Positions 1,432 to 32,104 of a stretch of 64,000 nucleotides of DNA are shown one piece after another (positions within the stretch are counted from its first letter, which is position 1; each line of letters opens with the position of its first letter). A model generated the notes under the pieces. That model had not been told where the DNA came from and ran no database searches. It was given only the letters and a program-made list of their open reading frames with translations. The stretch spans positions 4,529,001-4,593,000 of the forward strand of contig NZ_CP132910.1 of NCBI RefSeq assembly GCF_030846775.1. Direction: 5' to 3'. This stretch comes from Geothrix sp. 21YS21S-2 (GTDB lineage Bacteria; Acidobacteriota; Holophagae; Holophagales; Holophagaceae). A program made the translations under genes and the position numbers.

Positions 1432-2024
1432 GTGCGCCAGGCCAAGCCTGGGCGAGGAGGATGGATGACCTAAGACAGACTGAAACCTCGCAATGGAGCC
1501 CAGCGGGGAGGCAGCAAGCCCCGCCCGGCAAAGCTGGCCAGCAGCCGGAACCGAGTCTTGCGTGGGGAAGGGCGACCGACCTCGTGAAGCGTAGACAGGG
1601 AGTGCATGGGCCGTGTGATGGAGCCCCGAAAGCATCCAACCGTGGGAGTCGACGCCGTTCTCCGATCGGAAGACAGCACCCGAAGGTCGCAAGGGCCTGA
1701 CCGTAGGGTCCCACCGGGGTCATAGAGCAGGGCACGTGCACAGGGGTTCCCCAGGAACCTGGGAGATCCAGCCATCTCCGCCAACAACCCAGTGGTGAGG
1801 GAAGCCACGTAAAACGAACCCAGGCTCGCCGGGGGGTGCCGCCCCCGGCGGGAGCGAACAGCCGGCACAGGGCGGTACCGCAAACTGAAGGAAACGAAGG
1901 AGCGCGGGAGGGGTGGCCGGAAGTCGGAGCAGCTCATAGTAGCGATGATCGCGGGGAACCGGGCCGCCGGGACCCGCTGGAGCCAAGGAGCTGCCGGATC
2001 ACGGAACCGTTGAAGGGAAAGATA

Positions 2025-3353
2025 ATGGGTGCAATGACATCCAACAGCGTCTCCACGAAACAACAACGGATCGCAGAACTGGCCAGGATCCACCCGGAGG
2101 TGGCTTTCACCTCCTTGGCCTACCACATGGACCTGGACTGGATGAAGGAAGCCTTCGGGCGCACCCGCAAGGATGGGGCGACCGGGGTGGACGGCGTGAC
2201 GGGCAAGGAATACGGGGAAAACCTGGAGTCCAACCTCCAGAGCCTCCTGAACCGGGCTAAGAACGGCGACACCTACAAGGCCCCTCCAGTCCGGAGAACC
2301 TACATCCCGAAAGGGGATGGCAGCCAACGCCCCCTGGGCATTCCCGCCTTCGAAGACAAGGTCCTGCAAAGGGCCGTGGTGATGGTGATGGAACCGCTCT
2401 ATGAGCAGGACTTCCTGGACTGCTCCTACGGGTTCAGGCCCGGGCGCTCCGCGCACATGGCGCTGGAGGCGATTTGGCAGGGGTTGATGGACATGGGGGG
2501 AGGCTGGGTGCTTGACGTGGATATCCGTAAGTATTTCGATACTTTGGACCACGGGAAGCTGCGGGAAATCCTTGACCTGCGGATGAAGGACGGCGTTCTG
2601 AGGCGCCTGATCGGCAAATGGCTCAACGCGGGCGTGCTGGAGAAAGGATGCATCACGCACCCGGAAACCGGCTCGCCCCAGGGCGGGGTGGTCAGTCCGA
2701 TGCTCGCCAACATCTACCTCCACGAGGTGCTGGACGTGTGGTTTGAAAGGGAGGTCAAGCCCCGACTCCGGGGTCGGGCCTTCCTGGTGCGCTACGCGGA
2801 CGACTTCGTGATGGGCTTTGCCCAGGAGGAGGATGCCAAGCGGGTTATGGAAGTCCTGCCCAAGCGGTTCGAGCGGTATGGCCTGACGATCCACCCGGAT
2901 AAGACCCGGCTGGTGGAGTTCTGGAAGCCGAGGGAGCCCAGGGACCCCAATGGGGGACCAGGCCACTTCGACTTCCTGGGATTCACCCACTACTGGGCCA
3001 CGGCCAAGAACGGCCGGTGGGTGGTGAAGCGGAAGACCGCGAAGAGCCGGATGAGTCGGGCGCTCACGAAGATCGGGGAGTGGATGGCCAAACACCGCCA
3101 CCTCCCGGTGCGCGAGCAATGGCGGACGATCAACCAGAAACTGGTCGGTCACTTCAGGTATTACGGGATCACGGGGAACTCCAGGGCCCTGGCGCACTTC
3201 CGCTATGAAGTTGGGCGAAGGTGGCGTGGATGGCTCAACCGGAGGTCCCAGCGGGCCCGCATGACCTGGGATCGCATGAACAAGCTTCTGGCTCGGTTCC
3301 CACTGGCCCCAGCCATCAGTTACGCATCGAAACTACGTCCTCAGCGACCGTGA
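2025..3353 (+). CDS. Group II intron reverse transcriptase/maturase
   Basis: This 442-residue protein has a reverse transcriptase domain with the palm motifs FRPGRSAH, SPQGGVVSP and the catalytic YADD at 257-260. A maturase (GIIM) domain follows, with FDFLGFTHYW and later HFRYYGITGNSRAL. No HNH endonuclease domain follows the maturase domain, so it probably relies on target structure or nascent DNA for priming. It binds its own intron RNA to help splicing and copies it during retrohoming. I chose ATG 2025 because GAAGGGA lies 6-7 nt upstream. The frame stays open upstream to 1836, but that stretch is structural intron RNA. The catalytic motif and frame are intact, so the intron may be active. 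Confidence 0.95.
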   Translation: MGAMTSNSVSTKQQRIAELARIHPEVAFTSLAYHMDLDWMKEAFGRTRKDGATGVDGVTGKEYGENLESNLQSLLNRAKNGDTYKAPPVRRTYIPKGDGSQRPLGIPAFEDKVLQRAVVMVMEPLYEQDFLDCSYGFRPGRSAHMALEAIWQGLMDMGGGWVLDVDIRKYFDTLDHGKLREILDLRMKDGVLRRLIGKWLNAGVLEKGCITHPETGSPQGGVVSPMLANIYLHEVLDVWFEREVKPRLRGRAFLVRYADDFVMGFAQEEDAKRVMEVLPKRFERYGLTIHPDKTRLVEFWKPREPRDPNGGPGHFDFLGFTHYWATAKNGRWVVKRKTAKSRMSRALTKIGEWMAKHRHLPVREQWRTINQKLVGHFRYYGITGNSRALAHFRYEVGRRWRGWLNRRSQRARMTWDRMNKLLARFPLAPAISYASKLRPQRP

Positions 3354-3357
3354 CGAG

Positions 3358-3391
3358 GAGCCGGATGCGGTAGTCCCGCACGTCCGGATCT
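3358..3391 (+). ncRNA. Group II intron domain V
   Basis: This 34-nt hairpin starts GAGCCGGATGCGG and returns through CCGCACGTCCGGATC. It carries the AGC catalytic triad at the base of the stem (3359-3361) and begins 5 nt after the maturase stop codon, the expected place. The apical loop reads roughly TAGTC rather than a GNRA tetraloop, and the G of the triad faces A rather than U; both are slight departures from textbook domain V. Confidence 0.88.
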
Positions 3392-3430
3392 GAGGGGGGC
3401 CGGGGGCGCAAGCTCCCCGGCCTACCCGAC
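3392..3430 (+). ncRNA. Group II intron domain VI and 3' splice site
   Basis: A strong hairpin (GGCCGGGG paired with CCCCGGCC around a GCAA loop) is followed by TACCCGAC. A3424 can bulge opposite the basal GGG/CCC stem and is seventh from the 3' end, the usual spacing for the branch-point adenosine. The intron ends at C3430. Confidence 0.8.
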
Positions 3431-20767: not shown

Positions 20768-22150
20768 TCAGGCGAACAGATCCTCGTACCGGTCCCGCCG
20801 CGTCATCACCGTCACGTCCCCGTCCCCATGCACCAACACCCGAGGCGGCCGCGGATAGGCGTTCGCGTTGCTCGCCAAGAAGTGGGCCGTGTAGGCGCCG
20901 GTGTCGCGGATCAGCAGCGTGTCGCCGCGCCGGGGGCGCCGCCTCAGGCGGGTCTGGAACCTCGCCAGCAGGTCGCCCGAGAAGCAGAGGTTGCCGGCCA
21001 CGAACGTCTCGAAGGGCTCCGGGTCGTCGGCGCCCTCCAGCACGTCCCAGCGGTTTGGGAGGCCCTCCAGCATCGCGTCGGCGTGGTTCAGGACGCCCAT
21101 CTCCACGGTGACCAGGTTGTGGGCGCCCGCGGCCCTGCGCACGTGGGCGACGCGGCAGAGGGTGACCCCGGCGTCCTCGGCGATGGCGCGGCCCGGTTCC
21201 ACCAGGAGTTCGGGGGCGTCCAGGGACTCCAGGGCCTTCAGGGTGCCCAGGGTCTCGCCGTCCACGGTGACCTCGCCCTTCAGGACGGCTTCGAGCATCC
21301 GCTCCTTGGGCCAGGGGGAGAAATAGGCCTCGCCGTGCCAGGCGCCGCCAGCGTCCATGCCGGCCGTGCCCAGGTTCCAGCTGAACCCGTCCCGGGCGGC
21401 GGTGCGCCGGCGCAGCTCGTCCCAGGCCGCCTCCTCCAGGTAGTTGACGGGAAAGCCACCGCCCAGGTTCAGGATGGGGCAGGCGCCGGTGCGGTCCTTG
21501 AGCACCCGGCCCAGTTCCACCATGCGTCCCAGGACGGCCAGGTAGGGCTCGGGCCGGGTGATCTGGGAGCCGATGTGGGTGTGGAAGCCCAGGAAGCGCA
21601 CCGATGGGAAGCTGCCCAGGCTCTCCAGGACGAGCGGGACCTCCCCCAGGGGGATGCCGAACTTGGACCAGAGGCCGGCCGTGAAGATGTCGTCCCCCGT
21701 CACCCGGCCCAGGTCGAAGCCGGAGAGTCGTAGGAGGACCCTCGCGCGCCGGTCCATGCCCCGGGCCGTGGCCTCCACCAGGGCCAGTTCCTCTGCGGAG
21801 TCGGCCACGATGAGCATCCTCGAGCCGATGGCCTCCCGGATGAGTTCGTCCTCCTTGCAGTTGCCGTTGAGGTCCAGGGTGCGCGGGTCCATGCCGGCCT
21901 GCAGGGCCATGCGGGTCTCGAAGGGGGAGGCCACGTCCGCCCCGGCCCCCTCGGCGCGGATGGCGGCGAGCAGGACGGGGTGGGCGGAGGCCTTCACGGC
22001 GTACCGCAGGGCGCCCCGGGGATAGAGGTCCCGGAAGACCCGGGCGAAGGCCCGCACGTTCTCGCGGACCCGGGGCAGCCAGGTCAAGTGGAGGGGCAGG
22101 CCGTATTCGGCGATCCAGTCGCCGGCGGGCCGGCCCAGCAGTTCGGTCAC
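20768..22150 (-). CDS. PLP-dependent decarboxylase, fold type III (DAP/ornithine/arginine decarboxylase-like)
   Basis: This 460-residue enzyme has the alanine-racemase-type barrel with the PLP lysine K53 in RYAVKAS. Other family motifs are FHTHIGSQ (about 200), the phosphate-binding NLGGGFPVNY, and ELLVEPGRAIA. A C-terminal beta domain carries ETFVAGNLCFSGD. GTG 22150 overlaps the isoaspartyl dipeptidase stop (GTGA), so the two are translationally coupled. The substrate cannot be read from sequence. Given the cluster, an amino acid released from beta-aspartyl peptides (arginine, ornithine or lysine) is plausible. Lysine biosynthesis is less likely in this context. Confidence 0.85.
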   Translation of the reverse strand: MTELLGRPAGDWIAEYGLPLHLTWLPRVRENVRAFARVFRDLYPRGALRYAVKASAHPVLLAAIRAEGAGADVASPFETRMALQAGMDPRTLDLNGNCKEDELIREAIGSRMLIVADSAEELALVEATARGMDRRARVLLRLSGFDLGRVTGDDIFTAGLWSKFGIPLGEVPLVLESLGSFPSVRFLGFHTHIGSQITRPEPYLAVLGRMVELGRVLKDRTGACPILNLGGGFPVNYLEEAAWDELRRRTAARDGFSWNLGTAGMDAGGAWHGEAYFSPWPKERMLEAVLKGEVTVDGETLGTLKALESLDAPELLVEPGRAIAEDAGVTLCRVAHVRRAAGAHNLVTVEMGVLNHADAMLEGLPNRWDVLEGADDPEPFETFVAGNLCFSGDLLARFQTRLRRRPRRGDTLLIRDTGAYTAHFLASNANAYPRPPRVLVHGDGDVTVMTRRDRYEDLFA

Positions 22151-23310
22151 TCGAAGGTTCCCTTGACCAGGACCTTGCGCGCCTTCATGAGGACGCGGCC
22201 CTTGGCGATCATGGTGTGGATGGTGAGGTCCCGGGGGTCCAGGAGCACGATGTCGGCGTCCATGCCCGGGGCCAGCTGGCCCTTGCCCTGGAGCTTGAAG
22301 ATGCGCGCGGGGTTGGAGGTTATGACCCGCAGCGCGGTGGCCAGGGGGATGTCCTCCTTCAGGACCGCGTCGCGCACCTCCGGGAACAGGCTCGTGACCC
22401 GGCCCACGCCCACGCCCTGGATGCGCCCGTTGGCGTCGAAGTCGGGCAGGCTGCCCTGGCCGTCGGAGGTGAAGGTGATGTGGCCGGGGTCCACGCCGGC
22501 GTCCAGCATGCGCCGGAGGCCCTCCGAGGGCTTGATCTCGCCGGCCTCGACGAAGGCGGGGACGGTGGAGGTGGTGAAGTCCACGAAGCCCCCCGAGAGG
22601 GCGTAGGCGGTGCCCTCCTCGAAGAGGGAGGGGTTGCGGTTGATGTGGGTGGGCAGGAACTGGCGGGCCGGGATCTCGGTCTCCAGGAGCAGCCGCCTCA
22701 GGTACTCCAGGCCGCGCCGGCCGTCGCCCAGGTGGATGTTCACCACCCCGGCCTTGCCGGAGAGGATGCCGCCGCGGCGGGTCTCCCCGGCGAGCTGGGC
22801 GAAGGCCTCGAAGGTGGGCTGGGAGGAGCGGTGGTCGCTCAGGGCGACCTCGCCCACGCCCAGGATCTTCTCGATGCACAGGAGGTCCCCCTCGATGGTG
22901 CCCGTGAGGGTGCGCACCGGCACCGCATAGTGGCCGGTGAGGGCGAAGGTGGTGATGCCTTCGGCTTCGAGTCCCTGGGCCTTGGCCAGCAGGCCCGCCA
23001 TCGTGCGGGTGACCCCGTCGGTGCCCAGGCAGCCCACGATGGTGGTCACGCCGCCCATGACGGCGTCGGACAGGACCAGTTCCGGCGTTCGCGTGGCCGG
23101 ACCTCCCTCGCCGCCGCCGCCCATGATGTGGACGTGGCCGTCGATGAAGCCGGGCACGGCGATGAGGTTCCGGGCGTCGATGACGTCGCAGTAGCGGCGG
23201 GGGATCCGGATGTCCGGATGCATGCGCAGGATCTTTCCCCCGCCGGCGAGCAGGTCGCACCGGCCTTCGGGGGAAGGGGAATGGATTTCGGCGTTCTTGA
23301 TGAGGAGCAT
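22147..23310 (-). CDS. iadA: Isoaspartyl (beta-aspartyl) dipeptidase
   Basis: This 387-residue amidohydrolase should hydrolyse beta-aspartyl dipeptides in the cytosol. It has H59 and H61 (GHVH), E68 in GGGGEGG, Y128 in GHYAV, H193 in NIHLGDG, H222 in LPTHINRN and an Asp in TSDGQGS. It matches E. coli IadA along its length. One notable difference is that the bridging carbamylated lysine of the E. coli enzyme (K162, recalled from the known structure) aligns with E154 here, in GVGEVALSDHRS. A glutamate can bridge two metals without carbamylation. It sits between the exported peptidases and a decarboxylase, which fits the final cleavage of cyanophycin dipeptides. Confidence 0.93.
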   Translation of the reverse strand: MLLIKNAEIHSPSPEGRCDLLAGGGKILRMHPDIRIPRRYCDVIDARNLIAVPGFIDGHVHIMGGGGEGGPATRTPELVLSDAVMGGVTTIVGCLGTDGVTRTMAGLLAKAQGLEAEGITTFALTGHYAVPVRTLTGTIEGDLLCIEKILGVGEVALSDHRSSQPTFEAFAQLAGETRRGGILSGKAGVVNIHLGDGRRGLEYLRRLLLETEIPARQFLPTHINRNPSLFEEGTAYALSGGFVDFTTSTVPAFVEAGEIKPSEGLRRMLDAGVDPGHITFTSDGQGSLPDFDANGRIQGVGVGRVTSLFPEVRDAVLKEDIPLATALRVITSNPARIFKLQGKGQLAPGMDADIVLLDPRDLTIHTMIAKGRVLMKARKVLVKGTFE

Positions 23311-23330
23311 CGTGCGACTCCAGGGTCCGG

Positions 23331-24794
23331 CTAGAAGGCTCGCCAGACCGGAAGGGTACCATCGGGCAGGGCCAGGGTGCTGAAATCCCGGTAGCTGTAG
23401 AGCCCGTACAGGAGGCAGGGTTCGAGGATGCCGATGGCGCAGCGCGCCAGGGGCTGGTCGAGGGGCACCACGAGGGAGCCCTCCGGGAAGGCGTGGCCGG
23501 AGACGGGGTCCCGGGCCACGATCTGGCGGTTCTCATAGCGGCCGTAGAGATCGTCGTAGCCGGCCTCCACCCGGAGGAGGCGGCACCGCTCGGCCTGGAT
23601 GGGGGCGGCGCCGGTCCTGGCGTAGCGGATCCCGTGGCGGTCCAGGAGGGCCTTGAAGGTTTCTGCGGCCGCGGCGTCGATGACGTAGGCCCTGGGGGTG
23701 GGGACGCTTCCCTTCACCACCAGGTCGGTCATGAGGCCGGGGGAGGGGATGTCCAGCACCTTGCCCGTGGCGCGCTCCGTCACCTTCACGACGGGAGCCC
23801 GTCCATCCAGGCTGGCCCAGAAGAAGTTCGTGGGCAGGTAGGCCGGGAGGGGCTCCCTGCGGGCGGCTTCGCACAGGGCCTCCACCTTCCGCCGGGAGGC
23901 GGCGGTGCCCAGCAGGTGCCGGTAGAGCCGGGTGTAGGCGTCGGCGCGGGCCGGGAGGTCCTGGGGCGCGCCGGGCTGGCGCCGGGTGCCGGCCTCGATG
24001 ATGAAGGAGAGGGTGCCCATGCAGCCCAGGCTGTTGCGGCCGTCGTCCACCTCGGTGGTGGAAGGGCGGATCTCGTCCAGGGGGGGCAGGCCGCCCACGG
24101 TGTAGCGCGTGTAGGCGTAGCCGGCCTTCGCCATGACGGGCCGGGCGGATTCCACCCGGGCCAGGGCCTCCCTGCGCAGCGCCGCGGGGATCCAGGGGAC
24201 GTTCAGGCCGTCCATGGTGATCAGCGGCCAGCAGTCCCAGCCCTTGGCGTCCCAGTCCTTGCCGTCCCGGGTGAACTCGTGGCTGTCCACGGCCAGGTGG
24301 GGGAGGATGCGCCGGGCCACGGCGTGGAGGGCGCGGGTCTCCGGCTGCAGGAGGCGGATGTGGTCCCGGTTCAGGTCGGCCCCGGCGCCGTTGGTGCGCC
24401 GCCCGGCCTCGGCCCCGTCGGGGTTCATCATGGGCATGAGGTAGAGGTCCACGTCCTCCGGCAGGAGGGCGGGCTTTTCCGCGATGGCCCGGATCAGGCA
24501 GAGCTGGGCATCCTTGCCGGAGATCTCGTTGCCGTGCTGCTGGGCGTAGAAGAGGACCTTGAAGCGGGCCTTGGCGCCGCCCCGGTTCAGGCGCACCAGG
24601 CGGATGGCGCGGCCTTCGACGCTGCGGCCCTCCTCGGTGACCGTGATGAGGCCCGGCTTCGCCACCTCCGCCAGGAAGGCCTCCATGTCCGCGTAGGAGA
24701 TGGAGGCCTTCAGGCGGAGGGGATCGGCGGGGACGCGCTGCTCCCCGGGGGCGGCCATCAGGGTCGAGGCGAGGAGGAAGGGGAGGAGGCGCAT
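23331..24794 (-). CDS. Exported M14-family zinc carboxypeptidase
   Basis: This 487-residue protein has a signal peptide (about 1-15) and an M14 domain with zinc ligands H87 and E90 (QQHGNE) and H172 (DSHEF). The arginine/asparagine substrate motif is NPDGAEAGRRTN, and the catalytic Glu lies in FIIEAG. The 200-residue C-terminal extension is beta-rich and of unknown role. It probably trims peptides in the periplasm or outside the cell. The stop-to-start gap to the cyanophycinase gene is 1 bp, so they are co-transcribed. Confidence 0.92.
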   Translation of the reverse strand: MRLLPFLLASTLMAAPGEQRVPADPLRLKASISYADMEAFLAEVAKPGLITVTEEGRSVEGRAIRLVRLNRGGAKARFKVLFYAQQHGNEISGKDAQLCLIRAIAEKPALLPEDVDLYLMPMMNPDGAEAGRRTNGAGADLNRDHIRLLQPETRALHAVARRILPHLAVDSHEFTRDGKDWDAKGWDCWPLITMDGLNVPWIPAALRREALARVESARPVMAKAGYAYTRYTVGGLPPLDEIRPSTTEVDDGRNSLGCMGTLSFIIEAGTRRQPGAPQDLPARADAYTRLYRHLLGTAASRRKVEALCEAARREPLPAYLPTNFFWASLDGRAPVVKVTERATGKVLDIPSPGLMTDLVVKGSVPTPRAYVIDAAAAETFKALLDRHGIRYARTGAAPIQAERCRLLRVEAGYDDLYGRYENRQIVARDPVSGHAFPEGSLVVPLDQPLARCAIGILEPCLLYGLYSYRDFSTLALPDGTLPVWRAF

Positions 24795-24795
24795 G

Positions 24796-25617
24796 TCAGG
24801 GCTTCACCTTCCGGGTGGCCAGATCGATCGTGCCGCCCTTGCGGAGGAAGTGGAGCGTCAGGCCGGTGAAGCCGCCGTTCTTCAGCTGCATGCCCCTGGA
24901 GTCGAAGACCAGGACGCCGCTGGCGCCGTGCACCGTGCCCACGCCCTTGCGCACCACCAGCGCGGTGGTCTCGTCCACGCCGATGGCCAGGACGCCGGGG
25001 AAGGTCATGCCGATGCTGAGCAGGCGGTTCTCGCGGCCCCGCTTGATGAAGTGCTGGTCGATGACCACGTCGGGGGGCAGGAAACCCATGCCTTCGCGGG
25101 TGATGTAGGCCTTGGGCCCCATCTCGCGAAGTTCCAGTTTTCCGAAGATGTCCTCGCCCACGAGCATGATCTTCGACATGATGGCGGCGCCCGCGCTGGT
25201 GCCGCCCACGACGGCGCCGTCCTGGTACTTGTCCTTGATGAGCTTGTGGAGCGGCGTCCCAACGATCTTGTCGCCCACCAGGGCCTGGTCCCCGCCGGAG
25301 AACCAGAACCCCGTGCAGCGCGCGGCGGCCTCGAGCATGGCCGGGGTGGAGGAATCCTCGCGCTTGCGCACGTCCAGGGGCACCAGGGTGATGCCGTGGG
25401 GGGGAAGGGTCTCCTTCCAGTCCTTGAGTTCCCCCTCGGGGTCCGAGGTGGCGGTGGGGATGATTCCGATGATTCCTCCCCGCCCGCCGGCGCCCTTCAG
25501 GAAGGCGTCCATGATGTCGGGCGTGGTGCCGTGGCCGCCCACGATGACCAGGGTTCCCTTGGGAGCGGCCGCGCCCAGGAGGCACGTCAGGAGGAGGAGG
25601 CAGAGACTGCGGAGCAT
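24796..25617 (-). CDS. cphE: Exported cyanophycinase (peptidase S51)
   Basis: This 273-residue protein starts with a signal peptide (MLRSLCLLLLTCLLGAAAPK), unlike intracellular CphB enzymes. The S51 core includes the nucleophile S141 in GGTSAGAA, FSGGDQ at 107-112 and the substrate-pocket motif DQHFIKRGRENRLLSIG. Cyanophycinases release beta-Asp-Arg dipeptides from cyanophycin granule polymer. Neighbouring isoaspartyl dipeptidase would split that dipeptide. The symbol follows the extracellular enzyme class; the assignment of substrate is inference. AAAGGAAG precedes the start. It lies 72 bp after the TonB receptor gene. Confidence 0.88.
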   Translation of the reverse strand: MLRSLCLLLLTCLLGAAAPKGTLVIVGGHGTTPDIMDAFLKGAGGRGGIIGIIPTATSDPEGELKDWKETLPPHGITLVPLDVRKREDSSTPAMLEAAARCTGFWFSGGDQALVGDKIVGTPLHKLIKDKYQDGAVVGGTSAGAAIMSKIMLVGEDIFGKLELREMGPKAYITREGMGFLPPDVVIDQHFIKRGRENRLLSIGMTFPGVLAIGVDETTALVVRKGVGTVHGASGVLVFDSRGMQLKNGGFTGLTLHFLRKGGTIDLATRKVKP

Positions 25618-25689
25618 GACTTCCTTTCGGCGAGGCCGCGGGCGGGGGGTCCGGAGACCCGCCGCGCCGCGCCCGTTCTTCGGATCGGA

Positions 25690-28485
25690 CTAGAAATTAT
25701 AGCGGGCACCCAGCTGGAGGCGTCGGCCCGCATCGAGGGTGGAGGGATACTTGTAGTCGACGTAGACTCCGGAGGTGTCGCTGGTGCTGGAGTTCGCCCG
25801 GGTGATGTAGCTGGTGGCGGACTGGCGGTTCAGCACGTTGAGGACCTCGACGAAGACCTCCATGCGGGCCTTCTTGGTGAAGTTGAACATCTGGGTGACG
25901 CGCAGGTCCAGGAGGGTGCGGCTGGGATAGGTCTGGCTGCCCAGGGGCTCGAGGTTCACGGCGTAGCGGGTGCCGTTGTAGGAGTCGGTGCGGTAGGTGG
26001 GCGTCCAGTGGGTGCCGCTCAGGTAGGTGAACGTGCCGGAAACGCGCATGTTCCACGGAAGCTCGTACATCCCCCGGGCCTTGAACTCGTTGTCGTTGAC
26101 GCCCGGCAGGTTCCCGTAGGAGTTGGTCTGGAGGTTGGGGTTGTAGTAGACCTTGTCGTAGCTGTCCGCGCGCTGGATGTTGCCCTTGAGGGAAGCGTGG
26201 GTGTAGCTCATGTTCACGCTCCAGGCATTCGCCAGGATCCGGTCCAGGGTGACGGTGACGGCCTCGTACTTGCGCTTGGCACTGTCGTCGTTCTTGGTGA
26301 CGTAGTTGTGGCTCTCGAGGCTGAAGTCCAGGGCGGCGTCGTAGTAGGTGCCGGGCTTCCAGATGTTGATGTTCTGGTGGTTCAGGGGGTTCACGAAGAC
26401 GTTGTAGGCGCCCTTGGGGTCGACGCCCTGGTCGGTGCGGACCAGGCTGTCCTTGAAGTCGCGCGACACATAGGAGGCGCTGGCGCTCCAGAGGGTGCCG
26501 AGCTTCTGGTCGAGGGAGACCGTGGTCTCGATCGTGTAGGGCTGGCGGGCGTTGGGGTCCACCGCGGTGATGTCGTTCACGCGCCGGTACTCGTAGTTGT
26601 CCGCGGTGCCTGGGGTGTAGTCGGGCCAGTTCTTGGGGTCGAGGACGCTGTCGATGACCGGGTAGTTGCCCCAGCTGTAGTACCGCTTCATGGGGATGGC
26701 GGACTGGATGGCGCGGTCGATGAAGTAGGTGGAGTAGCCCGCGTAGTACTTGCCCCAGTGGGCCTTCAGCATGGTCTTCTGGTCCGCCGTGACGGCGTAG
26801 GCCAGGCCCAGGCGCGGAGCGTAGGTGTTCTTGTTCCAGAGGGTCTCGCCGCCGTAGAAGCGGGCTTTGAACTGCTCGAAGCGCACGCCGGGGCTGATGG
26901 TGAGGCGGTCGTTGACGTGCCAGGTGTCCTGGGCGAAGGCGGCGAGGCGGTCCACGCGCTGGCGCACGTTCCAGCCCCCGCCCTGGATGAGATAGTCGCC
27001 GTCCAGTTCCAGGGTGCCGTCGTTATACTCGTAGATCGTCGCGTTGAGGTTCAAGTTGCCGGGGAAGCGCTCCAGCTCCTCGTCCGACGCCTGTTCGCGC
27101 TCGATGCCGAAGCGGAAGGCGTGGCTGTCGCCGGGGGTGAACAGGCCGGTCTTGAACCAGTCGAAGGTGGCCTGCACCGTGGCCCTGGACCGGTAGTTGA
27201 AGTCCTCGTAGGTGGAGTTGTTGAAGAACTCCCGGGCCGGCTTGTTGGGGTCGTACTTCCAGAGGTCGGCGGTGTCCAGGCTGAGCGCGTTGCCGCCGTA
27301 GCCGGGCATGTCGTAGCGGCCGGAGTAGCCGAAGGCCTTGACGGTCAGGACCTTGTCCGAGCCCATGGTCTGGGTCCAGGTGAGGCTGAAGGAGCGGTTC
27401 GGGGCGGATTCCTTCTGGGTGGCGATGGGCATGGTGTACTTGTCGATGTAGCGCCGGTCCCGGCCCACGTAGTCGTGCTCGGCCAGGAACTCGATGGTGG
27501 TGCTGGTCGTGGGGGCCCAGGTGAGCTTGGCCAGGGCCATGACCTTCTGGTCGCGTTCGGGAAGCTCGGCGCCCGTGGGGGTGCTCTGGATCTCGGACCG
27601 CTCGGCGGAGACGAAGAACCACAGCTTGTCCTTGATGATGGGGCCGCCCACGCTGGCGGCCACGTCCCAGTTCTTGGAGGGGAGGATGTTCTTGTCCTCG
27701 GGCGGCAGGTCGGGGTGGTTGGCGTTGATTCGGGCCTGCCATTTGGAATCTGCGTAGTAGGCGCTTACCGTGCCTTCGAAGGTGTTGCCGCCGCGCTTGA
27801 CCAGGCCGTTGACGAAGCCGCCCATGTAGCCGCCGAATTCGGCGTTGGCGCCCAGGCCGGCCACCTGCACTTCGGAGAACCAGTCGATGTTGGGGTAGAT
27901 CCACACCGTGCCGCCGGAGGGATCGCTGATGTTCACGCCGTCCATCATGTAGGCGTTCTCGCCCGAGTAGCCGCCCCAGGCCCTGTTCCCGTTGACGCCG
28001 GGGGTCAGGTCCATGATGGCGGTGATCGTGCGGTCCACGGGCAGGGTGGCCAGGGCCGCGGTGTCGAAGTTCTGGGTCTGGCCCACCGCGGCGTCGTCGA
28101 CGCGGGCGGAGGTGGCCACCACCTCCACCGTGGCGCCGGCGTTGGCGGCCGGCAGCCGCCAGTTCACCGTGGCGGTGCGGCCCAGCTCCAGGAGGGCGGT
28201 CTGGGTCTGGGTCATCAGGCCCTTGGCCGACACGGCGATCCTGAAGGTGCCGGGAGGAAGGGCCGCGAAGCGGTAGAGGCCGTTCTCGGCGCTGACCGTG
28301 GACCTCTCGCCGCCGATCATGGTGGCGGAATTGATGCGGACCAGGGCGCCGGCCACGGGCTTGCCGGAGGCGTCCTTGATCACGCCGCTGAGGGCCGACG
28401 TGGAGCTGGTCTGCGCCACCAGGGCGGTGGGGACAGCCACGAGTGCGAATGCAAAAAGGGTAAGGGACCCACGAGATCTCGGCAC
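25690..28485 (-). CDS. TonB-dependent outer-membrane receptor with carboxypeptidase-regulatory-like N-terminus (Oar-like)
   Basis: This 931-residue outer-membrane protein has a signal peptide (about 1-24). A CarboxypepD_reg-like beta-sandwich follows (GVIKDASGKPVAGALVRI), then a plug domain with YMMDGVNISDPSGGT, then a long beta-barrel ending in an aromatic residue (LQLGARYNF). I chose GTG 28485 because AAAGGAGG sits 6-7 nt upstream; the ATG at 28536 would add a non-signal leader. It would import large substrates with TonB energy. Its position at the head of the cyanophycinase/peptidase genes suggests peptide uptake, which is inference. Confidence 0.92.
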   Translation of the reverse strand: MPRSRGSLTLFAFALVAVPTALVAQTSSTSALSGVIKDASGKPVAGALVRINSATMIGGERSTVSAENGLYRFAALPPGTFRIAVSAKGLMTQTQTALLELGRTATVNWRLPAANAGATVEVVATSARVDDAAVGQTQNFDTAALATLPVDRTITAIMDLTPGVNGNRAWGGYSGENAYMMDGVNISDPSGGTVWIYPNIDWFSEVQVAGLGANAEFGGYMGGFVNGLVKRGGNTFEGTVSAYYADSKWQARINANHPDLPPEDKNILPSKNWDVAASVGGPIIKDKLWFFVSAERSEIQSTPTGAELPERDQKVMALAKLTWAPTTSTTIEFLAEHDYVGRDRRYIDKYTMPIATQKESAPNRSFSLTWTQTMGSDKVLTVKAFGYSGRYDMPGYGGNALSLDTADLWKYDPNKPAREFFNNSTYEDFNYRSRATVQATFDWFKTGLFTPGDSHAFRFGIEREQASDEELERFPGNLNLNATIYEYNDGTLELDGDYLIQGGGWNVRQRVDRLAAFAQDTWHVNDRLTISPGVRFEQFKARFYGGETLWNKNTYAPRLGLAYAVTADQKTMLKAHWGKYYAGYSTYFIDRAIQSAIPMKRYYSWGNYPVIDSVLDPKNWPDYTPGTADNYEYRRVNDITAVDPNARQPYTIETTVSLDQKLGTLWSASASYVSRDFKDSLVRTDQGVDPKGAYNVFVNPLNHQNINIWKPGTYYDAALDFSLESHNYVTKNDDSAKRKYEAVTVTLDRILANAWSVNMSYTHASLKGNIQRADSYDKVYYNPNLQTNSYGNLPGVNDNEFKARGMYELPWNMRVSGTFTYLSGTHWTPTYRTDSYNGTRYAVNLEPLGSQTYPSRTLLDLRVTQMFNFTKKARMEVFVEVLNVLNRQSATSYITRANSSTSDTSGVYVDYKYPSTLDAGRRLQLGARYNF

Positions 28486-28705
28486 AGAGCCTCCTTTGGC
28501 TGTTGATTGGTGACTGAAAGAATAATTTCCATTCACGTGAAATCAAGAAAAAAAGTTACATGATTTCAAAATCGAGAAACTATTTTTCAAGTCATCTATT
28601 TTCAGCTTTTAGCAATGAGATTGAGACTCTGTATTTTGTTGCTTTCGGGTCACGGTTTTCAACAAGCGACAGACATGTAAAAAAAACTTCATTTCCGGCG
28701 CCCCG
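28486..28705. promoter_or_regulatory. AT-rich upstream region of the TonB receptor operon
   Basis: About 190 bp between the receptor start and the preceding same-strand gene are far more AT-rich than the surrounding coding DNA, with several A and T runs. It should hold the promoter of the receptor-peptidase cluster. Several TTGAAA-like hexamers occur, but no pair could be chosen with confidence. A 64-codon open frame here has no ribosome-binding site and is not called. Confidence 0.45.
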
Positions 28706-30196
28706 TCAGCCGTGGGCGCCGGTTCCCGTCACTTCCGGCGCCCCGTCCCGGTAGTCCGCGAACCACTCCGAGAGGGCCTGGACCTGGGCGAGGATGGCCT
28801 CCGGACGGGTGCCGTCCCGCCACGGGAGGAGCTGCCCGTCCAGCTTCAGCACCGCGCCGTGGGCCACCACCGTATCCACCTCCGAGCCGTCCGCGGCCCA
28901 GATGAGGTTCTCCGTGACGTTGTCCAGGCGGGTGGGGACCATGTTGGGCCGGGCCAGATCGACGAGCACCCAGTCCGCCTGCCGCCCCGGGGCCAGCTCG
29001 CCCTGGTTGAGGCGCAGGATCTGGTTGGGGGCGACCGTGATCATCTCCATCAGCTGCTGGGAGGGCAGGAGGGTGGCGTCCTGGTGCAGGGCCTTCTGGT
29101 ACTGGGAGGCCAGGCGCGCCGCGGCGAGGATGTTCTGGTTGTCGGCGGAGCCGGAACCGTCCGTGGAGATGGCGACGCGCACGCCGGCCTTGAGCATGTC
29201 GATGAGGGGGGGCATGCCCGAGCCGAGGATGGTGTTGGCCAGCGGGTTGTGCACCACCGCGGCGCCGCTGCGGGCGATGAGCTCGATGTCCCGCGGGCCG
29301 CAGTTCACCTGATGGGCCAGGACGGTGCCTTCGTCCAGGATGCCGATCTCCTGGAAGTACTCCACCGGCGTGAGGCCGGGCTCGATGGATTCCGTGAACC
29401 ACTTCGTGGTGCGCGGCTCCTCGGAACTGTGGATGTGGAAGAGGGTCCCGTGGTCCCGGGCCCAGGCCTTCTGGGGCACGAGCACGGCCCGGCTGTTGGA
29501 GAAGCACTGGTCGGGCCCGGGCACGAAGCGGGTGCGCTCGCACCCGGCCTGGATCTCCAGGGCCTTCTCCAGGCGCGCGACGGCGTCGCCGGGCCGGTCC
29601 AGGAGCTCCCTGGCGTAGAACCGGTCCTGGCCGCCCACCGCCACGATCATGGTGGTGCCCGCGGCCTCGTTGGCCTGGGCGATGTCCTCCAGGTGGTACT
29701 TGTTCCAGTTGCAGTGGTGGACCATGGAGGCGGTGATGCCGTAGTGGATGTCGCACAGGCGCGCCATGCGGTAGGTGGCCGCCTGGGGGGTGCAGCCCAG
29801 GCGCTCGCGGAGCTCCTCCCTCCGGGCGTTGAGGAAGCCCGTGAAGGGGTTCACGGCGTGGTCAAGCCAGGCGGTGAGGGGCTCGTCCCGGGCGATCCCG
29901 ATGAGGGGCTGCTCGTGGTCGTGGCCGTGGGCCTTCACGAAGGCGGGGAGCAGGACCATGTCCTGCATGGGCACCGGGTCGCCGGAGGGCACCTCCCGCC
30001 GGGTGTGCAGGACGCGCAGGCGGGTGCCCCAGGTATCGGCCAGGCGCCTGCCCACGGCCGGGTCGTAGGGGCCGGCCTCGAGGATCTCCCCGTTCCGGGC
30101 GAGGACGTAGCCGTCGTGGATCCGGAGGGACCGGTCCGGTGCGGCCAGGGGGAGCATGAAGCGGCAGCGGCAGACGAGGAGGTTGGGCTCGTTCAT
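28706..30196 (-). CDS. ATZ/TRZ-type amidohydrolase, probable nucleobase/aminohydrolase
   Basis: This 496-residue metal-dependent hydrolase has PAFVKAHGHDHEQ at strand 1, HIHSSEE, LAHQVNC and the catalytic STDGSGS Asp, as in guanine deaminase and chlorohydrolase-type enzymes. VVHNPLANTILGSGMPPLIDML is the family segment preceding it. It would remove an amino group or open an amide on a ring compound. Its divergent neighbours are a BMP-type transporter and a molybdenum hydroxylase, so a purine deaminase such as guanine deaminase is the favoured role. ATG 30196 has AGGAG at 5-6 nt. The exact substrate is unproven. Confidence 0.85.
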   Translation of the reverse strand: MNEPNLLVCRCRFMLPLAAPDRSLRIHDGYVLARNGEILEAGPYDPAVGRRLADTWGTRLRVLHTRREVPSGDPVPMQDMVLLPAFVKAHGHDHEQPLIGIARDEPLTAWLDHAVNPFTGFLNARREELRERLGCTPQAATYRMARLCDIHYGITASMVHHCNWNKYHLEDIAQANEAAGTTMIVAVGGQDRFYARELLDRPGDAVARLEKALEIQAGCERTRFVPGPDQCFSNSRAVLVPQKAWARDHGTLFHIHSSEEPRTTKWFTESIEPGLTPVEYFQEIGILDEGTVLAHQVNCGPRDIELIARSGAAVVHNPLANTILGSGMPPLIDMLKAGVRVAISTDGSGSADNQNILAAARLASQYQKALHQDATLLPSQQLMEMITVAPNQILRLNQGELAPGRQADWVLVDLARPNMVPTRLDNVTENLIWAADGSEVDTVVAHGAVLKLDGQLLPWRDGTRPEAILAQVQALSEWFADYRDGAPEVTGTGAHG

Positions 30197-30547
30197 GGGG
30201 GCTCCTGGCGGCGGAAGGGGTGTGACTGCTGTCATTTTCCGGGTGGGCGTGTTGATTTTAATATTGGTAATGATAAGGTTATAGACACGGTGCGACGGCT
30301 GGGGAAACCTGGGCGGTTCATGACTGAAAATATTTTGACACGATGGTCTCTTTTTTGTTTATCCTCACTTCCATACCGCGTCCAGTGACTCTTTCTCTTC
30401 CTGCCCTGCCTTGAAACGACCTCTCGGTCATAATTTAAGGCAACGCCATTGGGTTGGTGAAATAATCAATTAATACGGCGATCCTCCCGCAGCTCGGGAC
30501 TCGCCCGGAAGTTGCCGGACCGAACGTCAGCCTGTGTGGGATCACCA
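30197..30547. promoter_or_regulatory. 351-bp divergent intergenic region with structured leader
   Basis: The region separates the amidohydrolase (minus) from the transporter operon (plus). The left two thirds are AT-rich. TTGACA at 30335-30340 with TTTATC 17 bp later is a modest promoter candidate for the plus strand. Just before the transporter start are two hairpins. One pairs GGCGA (30477-30481) with TCGCC (30501-30505) around an inner TCCCG/CGGGA stem. The second is CCGG-AAGTTG-CCGG (30505-30518). I could not match a known purine riboswitch core. Confidence 0.5.
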
Positions 30548-32104
30548 ATGCCGAACGCGCAATCCGAGACACCGCGGCTAGTCATCAAGGGGGTCAGCAA
30601 GATCTACCCCTCGGTCATCGCCAACGACAACGTCGACCTGACGATCATGCCCGGGGAGATCCGGGCCGTCCTGGGCGAGAACGGGGCGGGCAAGTCGACC
30701 CTGATGAAGATCATCTATGGCGTCACCCGCCCGGACAAGGGCGAGATCCTCTGGGAGGGCAGGCCGGTGTCGGTGCAGAACCCCGCCCATGCCCGGGAAC
30801 TGGGCATCGGGATGGTGTTCCAGCACTTCTCCCTCTTCGAGACCCTCACGGTGGCCCAGAACGTGGCCCTGGCCGTCCCCGGCAGGCTCGACCTGGCCGG
30901 GCTCTCCAGGCGGATCGAGGAGATCTCGGAGAAGTACGGGCTGCCGGTGGACCCGCGCAGGCTGGTGCACGCCCTTAGCGTCGGCGAGCGCCAGCGGGTG
31001 GAGATCATCCGCTGCCTGCTGCAGAACCCCCGCCTGCTCATCCTGGACGAGCCCACTTCCGTGCTGACGCCCCAGGCGGTGCGCAAGCTCTTCGAGACGC
31101 TGCGCCAGCTGGCCTCGGAAGGGGTCAGCATCCTCTACATCAGCCACAAGCTGGACGAGATCCAGGAGCTGTGCCACACCGCCACGGTGCTGCGCAACGG
31201 CCGGGTGACGGGCCACTGCACCCCCTCCCAGGAGACCCCGAAGACCATGGCCCGCCTGATGATCGGCGAGGACCTGCCCACCTTCCGGCACGGGGAGCCC
31301 GAGGAGGGCCGGGAGGTGCGCCTGCGCATCGACGGCCTCACCGTCAAGTCCGACGACCCCTTCGGCGTGGACCTCAAGGACATCCGCCTGGAAGTCCACA
31401 GCGGCGAAATCGTGGGCATCGCCGGCGTCTCGGGCAACGGCCAGCAGGAGCTGCTCCGGGCCATCTCCGGCGAGGAGCCGGTGCTGGACAAGCGCTGGAT
31501 CCACGTCTGCGGCGTGCCCGCGGGCCGCATGAACGCCTCCAGGCGCCGGGCCCTGGGCATGTGCTTCGTGCCCGAGGAGCGCCTGGGCCGGGGCGCGGTG
31601 CCGCGCCTCTCCCTGACGGACAACGTGCTGCTCACCGCCTTCCGCCGGAAGATGGTGCGCTTCGGCATGATCCGCCGCAAGGCGGCCAAGAGCTTCGCCG
31701 ACGACTGCATCCGGCTGTTCGACGTCAAGTGCGGCGGGGCGGGGAGCGAGGCCAAGTCCCTGTCCGGCGGCAACCTCCAGAAGTTCATCGTGGGCCGGGA
31801 GATCCTCCAGGAGCCCAAGGTCCTGGTGCTGGCCCAGCCCACCTGGGGCGTGGACGTGGGCGCGGCCTCCTTCATCCGGCAGCAGCTGCTCGGCCTCCGG
31901 GAGACCGGCACCGCCGTCCTGGTGATCTCCGAGGAGCTGGACGAACTGTTCGAGATCTGCGACCGCCTCGTGGTGATCGCCAAGGGCCGCCTTTCGCCTT
32001 CCAAGGCCACCTCGGACACGGGCGTGGAGGAAGTGGGCGTCTGGATGAGCGGAATGTGGCCGGACGCGGAACCCGCCAAGGATGAGGCGCCTCATGTGGC
32101 TTAA
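30548..32104 (+). CDS. Nucleoside/purine ABC transporter, double ATP-binding protein (BMP-type)
   Basis: This 518-residue protein has two ABC domains in tandem. The first has Walker A GENGAGKST, signature ALSVGERQR and Walker B LLILDEPTS. The second has a degenerate Walker A (GVSGNGQQE), signature LSGGNLQK, and LAQPTWGVDVGA. One active and one degenerate site is typical of carbohydrate- and nucleoside-type importers. ATG 30548 is chosen; an in-frame TTG at 30512 lies inside the leader hairpin. No strong ribosome-binding site is seen. It powers the two permeases that follow. Confidence 0.94.
   Translation: MPNAQSETPRLVIKGVSKIYPSVIANDNVDLTIMPGEIRAVLGENGAGKSTLMKIIYGVTRPDKGEILWEGRPVSVQNPAHARELGIGMVFQHFSLFETLTVAQNVALAVPGRLDLAGLSRRIEEISEKYGLPVDPRRLVHALSVGERQRVEIIRCLLQNPRLLILDEPTSVLTPQAVRKLFETLRQLASEGVSILYISHKLDEIQELCHTATVLRNGRVTGHCTPSQETPKTMARLMIGEDLPTFRHGEPEEGREVRLRIDGLTVKSDDPFGVDLKDIRLEVHSGEIVGIAGVSGNGQQELLRAISGEEPVLDKRWIHVCGVPAGRMNASRRRALGMCFVPEERLGRGAVPRLSLTDNVLLTAFRRKMVRFGMIRRKAAKSFADDCIRLFDVKCGGAGSEAKSLSGGNLQKFIVGREILQEPKVLVLAQPTWGVDVGAASFIRQQLLGLRETGTAVLVISEELDELFEICDRLVVIAKGRLSPSKATSDTGVEEVGVWMSGMWPDAEPAKDEAPHVA

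Follow-up and report, generated by a model that had tools for sequence, protein, structure and literature searches.

Introduction

Cyanophycin serves cyanobacteria and other microbes as a nitrogen store. That bacteria carry loci for its utilization, and that outer-membrane receptors can be paired with cyanophycinases, is in general terms already published. The cyanophycin utilization locus of Ben Hania et al. (2017), as described in PMC10206079, combines a cyanophycinase, iadA and a transporter. In Citromicrobium sp. JLT1363 a TonB receptor lies beside a cyanophycinase, an arrangement read as cyanophycin uptake (PMC3400609), and for Ca. Sulfomarinibacter, of the phylum Acidobacteriota, PMC8528874 reports a secreted cyanophycinase, no synthetase and, in one MAG, an isoaspartyl dipeptidase. 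A sequence-only reading of the DNA studied here had stated that extracellular cyanophycinases are usually considered alone; this is outdated, as these papers already describe utilization loci, a receptor pair and a pairing with IadA.

We analysed a stretch of 64,000 nucleotides (the window) from Geothrix sp. 21YS21S-2 (contig NZ_CP132910.1, positions 4,529,001 to 4,593,000), whose genome is a single contig of 5.25 Mb, and find in it what is likely an operon by which a Holophagaceae acidobacterium uses cyanophycin. Like the locus of Ben Hania et al., going by its description in PMC10206079, it joins a cyanophycinase-type enzyme, iadA and transport functions in a genome lacking cphA1, and points to scavenging of external polymer. 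By the same description it differs in two of its core members, a TonB receptor of the Oar-like type and an exported carboxypeptidase of family M14, and in using a YfcC/DcuC-family carrier that is linked to the unit in other genera, whereas in the window's genus it is unlinked and a decarboxylase occupies its slot. The Citromicrobium paper names only a cyanophycinase near the receptor (PMC3400609), whereas the window holds a conserved four-gene unit in a different phylum. Ca. Sulfomarinibacter shares with our organism the phylum, the secreted cyanophycinase, the isoaspartyl dipeptidase and the absence of a synthetase; the operon, receptor and M14 are not reported in the part of PMC8528874 available. 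To this our analysis adds the conserved M14, the carrier, the type of receptor, a contrast between makers and users of the polymer, and a genus-specific decarboxylase in the carrier's slot.

Organization of the locus

Five consecutive minus-strand genes span positions 20768-28536 of the window, in agreement with the sequence-only reading, which had claimed five same-strand genes and ended them at 28485, implying a later start codon for the receptor. The receptor gene (25690-28536) encodes a TonB-dependent protein with an N-terminal CarboxypepD_reg domain and an Oar-like/TonB beta-barrel (PF13620, PF25183, PF00593). It is followed by genes for an exported S51 peptidase of the cyanophycinase type (24796-25617), an exported M14 metallocarboxypeptidase with an extra C-terminal domain (23331-24794; PF00246), a cytosolic isoaspartyl dipeptidase, IadA (22147-23310), and a fold-type III PLP decarboxylase (20768-22150; PF02784/PF00278). 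By a simple hydrophobicity test the receptor, S51 and M14 carry export signals, the S51 N-terminus being signal-peptide-like, and IadA and the decarboxylase do not.

The M14 gene starts two bases past the S51 stop, and the GTG start of the decarboxylase (22150-22148) overlaps the TGA stop of IadA (22149-22147). The overlap makes translational coupling of the decarboxylase to IadA plausible, as had been proposed, and together with the S51-M14 spacing it suggests that the genes are likely to share one transcript. A single sigma-70-like promoter match lies upstream of the receptor gene on the same strand (28633-28662), but one match against 0.7 expected in shuffled sequences is not evidence of function, and a terminator scan gave nothing useful.

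Upstream of the receptor, at 28706-32104, lie a gene for a TRZ/ATZ-type amidohydrolase and, divergently oriented, one for a sugar/nucleoside-type ABC ATPase; both keep their position in all unit-bearing genomes of the window's genus. Neither the amidohydrolase (28706-30235) nor the divergent ABC transporter gene is counted here as part of the operon: we considered both and rejected them, as they are seen there only in this genus. Group II intron matches also occur in the window (1515-3430): D1-D4 span 1515-1729, and a second Intron_gpII match covers 3356-3430.

The predicted cyanophycinase and isoaspartyl dipeptidase

By every sequence test available, the S51 peptidase is a cyanophycinase. It scores 148.8 bits against TIGR02069, the NCBI cyanophycinase family (cut-off 126.6); among solved structures in the PDB, the cyanophycinases 3en0, 7uqv and 7uqw are nearest to it. 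The catalytic triad, S141 (in GTSAGA, of the GXSXG form), H189 (DQHF) and E216 (DE), and the substrate residues Q111, D187, Q188, R193, R195 and R198 are invariant in 29 aligned relatives. Besides the Ser-His-Glu triad, the residues critical in CphB are Gln101, Asp172, Gln173, Arg178, Arg180 and Arg183 (PMC3235067), and the window's S51 keeps equivalents of all of them; the arginine block is absent from 6nqc, an S51 relative described as a cyanophycinase-like exopeptidase. The enzyme also resembles CphE of Pseudomonas anguilliseptica and P. alcaligenes (PMC3235067) in its Sec-type export, Ser-His-Glu triad and binding residues. However, it is 273 residues long compared to about 420 for CphE, and it keeps CphB Gln173 where CphE has Thr.

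IadA scores 517.5 bits against TIGR01975 (cut-off 331.25) and aligns over its full length with solved IadA, the HVH, GGGGEGG, GTDG, GVGE and THINRN motifs included; the Glu of GVGE corresponds to E159 of Leucothrix IadA. Cleavage of beta-Asp-Arg is an established activity of this family, whose members are promiscuous and accept many beta-aspartyl dipeptides even when they belong to cyanophycin clusters (PMC10206079). Thus IadA alone is no proof of the substrate.

Conservation of the unit and its inner-membrane carrier

Among the 77 genomes of the order, 34 have the exported S51, and for 33 relative loci we read longer stretches. The receptor lies directly upstream of S51 in all 33, M14 comes next after S51 in 32 of the 33 (the unit of genome G029 has none), and IadA is next in 32 of 33, the remaining contig ending inside M14. 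Geothrix limicola (L113) is one of the organisms with the unit. Co-occurrence across the 77 genomes follows the same pattern: M14 is found in 33/34 S51-bearing genomes versus 1/43 others, and IadA at ≥65% identity in 34/34 versus 1/43. For the YfcC carrier, described below, the figures are 34/34 and 4/43. Because the Fisher probabilities for these three associations (below 1e-16) take no account of kinship, we rely on the counts, not the p-values, as the evidence. The gene order is conserved far beyond chance. An unlinking of the genes in all relatives, named in the sequence-only reading as evidence against it, did not occur; its question about conservation is answered in favour of receptor, S51, M14 and IadA, which stay together in that order across genera, and against the decarboxylase, which is confined to its own genus. 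In most Geothrix-like genomes a gene for an RpiR-family regulator (L049:2201-3043) lies directly upstream of the receptor; in the window's genus the surroundings of the unit showed no such gene.

In other genera the gene behind IadA, and coupled to it, encodes a YfcC/DcuC-family carrier (PF03606), whose best NCBIfam match is YfcC, below that family's cut-off. In the source genome such a carrier is encoded away from the unit, at 2145535-2146917, close to a murC-like gene. The carrier is a conserved fifth member of the unit that has been relocated in the window's genus, and the set of genes earlier put forward as a complete system had missed this inner-membrane component that the pathway needs. 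A literature search on the substrates of YfcC carriers returned nothing usable.

Beyond the order, we scanned GTDB contigs for the M14 family. In five loci of other Acidobacteriota (L123, L124, L126, L137 and L151) M14 follows a YfcC carrier, and a few kb off the opposite strand encodes an S51-receptor pair; a sixth (L136) has M14 and a nearby opposite-strand S51-receptor pair with no YfcC carrier. The S51 proteins of these loci keep GGDQ, DQHFxxRxRxxR and the hydrophobic N-terminal stretch. IadA was not found in the stretches read from these M14 loci, where it adjoins neither S51 nor M14. In L124 and L131, M14 and YfcC precede a gene whose product exceeds the menC cut-off (o-succinylbenzoate synthase / N-succinylamino-acid racemase), and M28 or M20 peptidase genes lie near M14/YfcC in L124, L131 and L137. 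A CapA/PGA_cap-family gene, with a lasso-peptide epimerase as best NCBIfam match far below cut-off, occurs near the operon in two Acidobacteriota groups (L045:12513-13883, L124:8921-10315 and L137:11888-13603), in L124 directly after S51.

Predicted makers and users of cyanophycin

No CphA1 is encoded in the whole source genome, the window included, where the best match reaches 230 bits against a cut-off of 850. The claim that there is no cyanophycin synthetase thus holds genome-wide; we considered whether the 230-bit match could be a hidden synthetase and rejected this, since it falls on the ATP-grasp domain of a glutathione enzyme that resembles GshAB. CphA1 exceeds the cut-off in five of the 77 genomes of the order and in none of the window's genus. 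In the CphA1 loci that we read, the adjoining S51 is a CphB with no signal, about 30% identical to the window's S51, and in some of them it stands behind an IadA of 44% identity. Two genomes, G029 and G047, have both a maker cluster and a user operon. In three Holophagaceae relatives (L071, L072 and L069) a signal-less CphB lies beside a CphA1 of about 1100 bits; in the clusters of L071 and L072 a shorter second gene follows; that of L071 has a match to cyanophycin synthetase in the Mur-ligase half only.

The M14 carboxypeptidase and a proposed pathway

The metal ligands of M14 (H87, E90 and H172) and its catalytic E267 fall in columns that are invariant among relatives. Its predicted model fits carboxypeptidases A/B, with human carboxypeptidase B as best match over residues 18-306 (Z 23.7, rmsd 3.0, 245 aligned). 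Carboxypeptidase-B-like (basic) specificity goes with an acidic residue in the S1' pocket; by hand alignment M14 has an invariant DD (250-251) close to that position, preceded by a poorly modelled segment (236-247). We know of no counterpart to an M14 step in the textbook two-step cyanophycin pathway.

The unit is probably a functional operon for the use of cyanophycin or beta-aspartyl peptides, judging from its conserved linkage and the sequence features of its S51, and in this respect the sequence-only reading, which had assigned that role to a receptor, exported cyanophycinase, M14 and IadA, appears to have been right. We propose that S51 would cleave the poly-Asp backbone in an extracytoplasmic step that yields beta-Asp-Arg, as its family and export signal suggest, and that the receptor would take oligomers or dipeptides through the outer membrane. 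With the fold and metal site of carboxypeptidases A/B, M14 may trim C-terminal residues of the products, perhaps the Arg, whose link is an isopeptide bond and whose carboxylate is free. The YfcC/DcuC-family carrier, from its linkage and co-occurrence, could then move products across the inner membrane, where IadA would split the dipeptide into Asp and Arg and feed central nitrogen metabolism. For the arginine, the genome encodes SpeA and an enzyme of the arginase/agmatinase family. Some observations weigh against this reading: IadA enzymes are promiscuous, the M14 step lies outside the two-step pathway, IadA is not beside S51 and M14 in the other Acidobacteriota loci, and the unit of G029 has no M14.

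The same enzymes could instead serve a general scavenging of beta-aspartyl (isoaspartyl) peptides, in which isomerised Asp/Asn peptides from dead cells are trimmed by S51 and M14 and finished by IadA, with no special role for cyanophycin. The many beta-aspartyl dipeptides accepted by IadA would suit such a role, the extra carboxypeptidase fits mixed peptides, and in other Acidobacteriota the neighbours of M14 include M28 or M20 peptidases as well as an enzyme resembling N-succinylamino-acid racemase. However, S51 has the full cyanophycin-binding set, including the three arginines that the cyanophycinase-like exopeptidase lacks, and scores above the cyanophycinase cut-off, and we regard this alternative as rather unlikely.

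It is a long shot, but M14 might be a side-chain (isopeptide) carboxypeptidase that takes arginine off cyanophycin or beta-Asp-Arg in the periplasm, which would be an undescribed second way of breaking down the polymer, and the genus-specific decarboxylase might use a beta-aspartyl product, not a free amino acid.

The decarboxylase is a genus-level addition

Returning to the proposed cyanophycin pathway, the sequence-only reading had placed the PLP decarboxylase at its end, acting on the released arginine (or ornithine or lysine). Its start codon does overlap the IadA stop, and it sits behind IadA, in the carrier's slot, in all five unit-bearing genomes of the window's genus, that is, in each of the four besides our own. 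These are, however, the only genomes of the 77 in the order that have it, and in a phylum sample of 396 genomes it is absent (E 1e-60) from the 394 of other genera. Genome G070, the sixth of the genus, has no S51, M14, decarboxylase or carrier, and its only IadA is distant (56% identity). The decarboxylase is thus not a conserved end of the path but a genus-level add-on.

The enzyme probably does not act on arginine, lysine or ornithine, at least not by the known mode of binding. Basic-amino-acid (ornithine, arginine) decarboxylases have an acidic residue at a position where the window's enzyme, with CFSGD, has Phe, and this loss argues against Arg, Orn and Lys. The Phe also takes the place of the Glu of DAP decarboxylases: in the genome's own LysA the motif reads CETGD, and where that protein has RPILYQA the decarboxylase has ADAMLEG and no RPxxY, so that it is unlikely to be a DAP decarboxylase. 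The enzyme scores 220 bits against TIGR01048 (LysA; cut-off 297.9) and 28.5 bits against TIGR01273 (SpeA; cut-off 624.1), and the genome has a separate LysA (443 bits) and SpeA (730 bits), as well as an arginase/agmatinase-family enzyme. We therefore rejected it as a second LysA or SpeA on both motifs and scores. Its AlphaFold model, built from 6 sequences, is poor (pLDDT 62.8).

A paralogue, 67% identical, is encoded at 594905 of the source genome, in an operon (L090:2689-8300, or 590688-596299 of the genome) with a TonB receptor and an enolase-superfamily enzyme with a leader. The latter is closest to L-Ala-D/L-Glu epimerases, below cut-off, and so is dipeptide-epimerase-like. The recurring company of a receptor and a dipeptide enzyme hints at a peptide-derived substrate for the decarboxylase. 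With its restriction to one genus, its Phe in CFSGD, a SpeA already in the genome and the paralogue in a different receptor operon, a route that ends in decarboxylation of the released amino acid is very improbable. We find hardly credible a salvage of cell-wall peptides, in which an MpaA-like M14, a LysA-like decarboxylase and IadA would recycle murein peptides with S51 incidental: M14 matches the MpaA family weakly (22 bits, cut-off 157), the decarboxylase has LysA ancestry, a dipeptide-epimerase-like gene adjoins its paralogue and YfcC lies near a murC-like gene in the window's genus, but the decarboxylase lacks DAP-recognition motifs, it is S51 and not the decarboxylase that is conserved, and neither S51 nor IadA has a known role in murein recycling.

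Discussion

For cyanophycin scavenging in Acidobacteriota, our analysis puts forward a concrete conserved operon of receptor, cyanophycinase, M14, IadA and YfcC-type carrier, and names M14 and the carrier as two components to which the pathway has so far assigned no role. An exported S51 beside a receptor serves as a marker that tells users from makers of the polymer inside one family. The operon may represent a route by which soil and sediment bacteria reuse nitrogen that cyanobacteria and other producers have stored.
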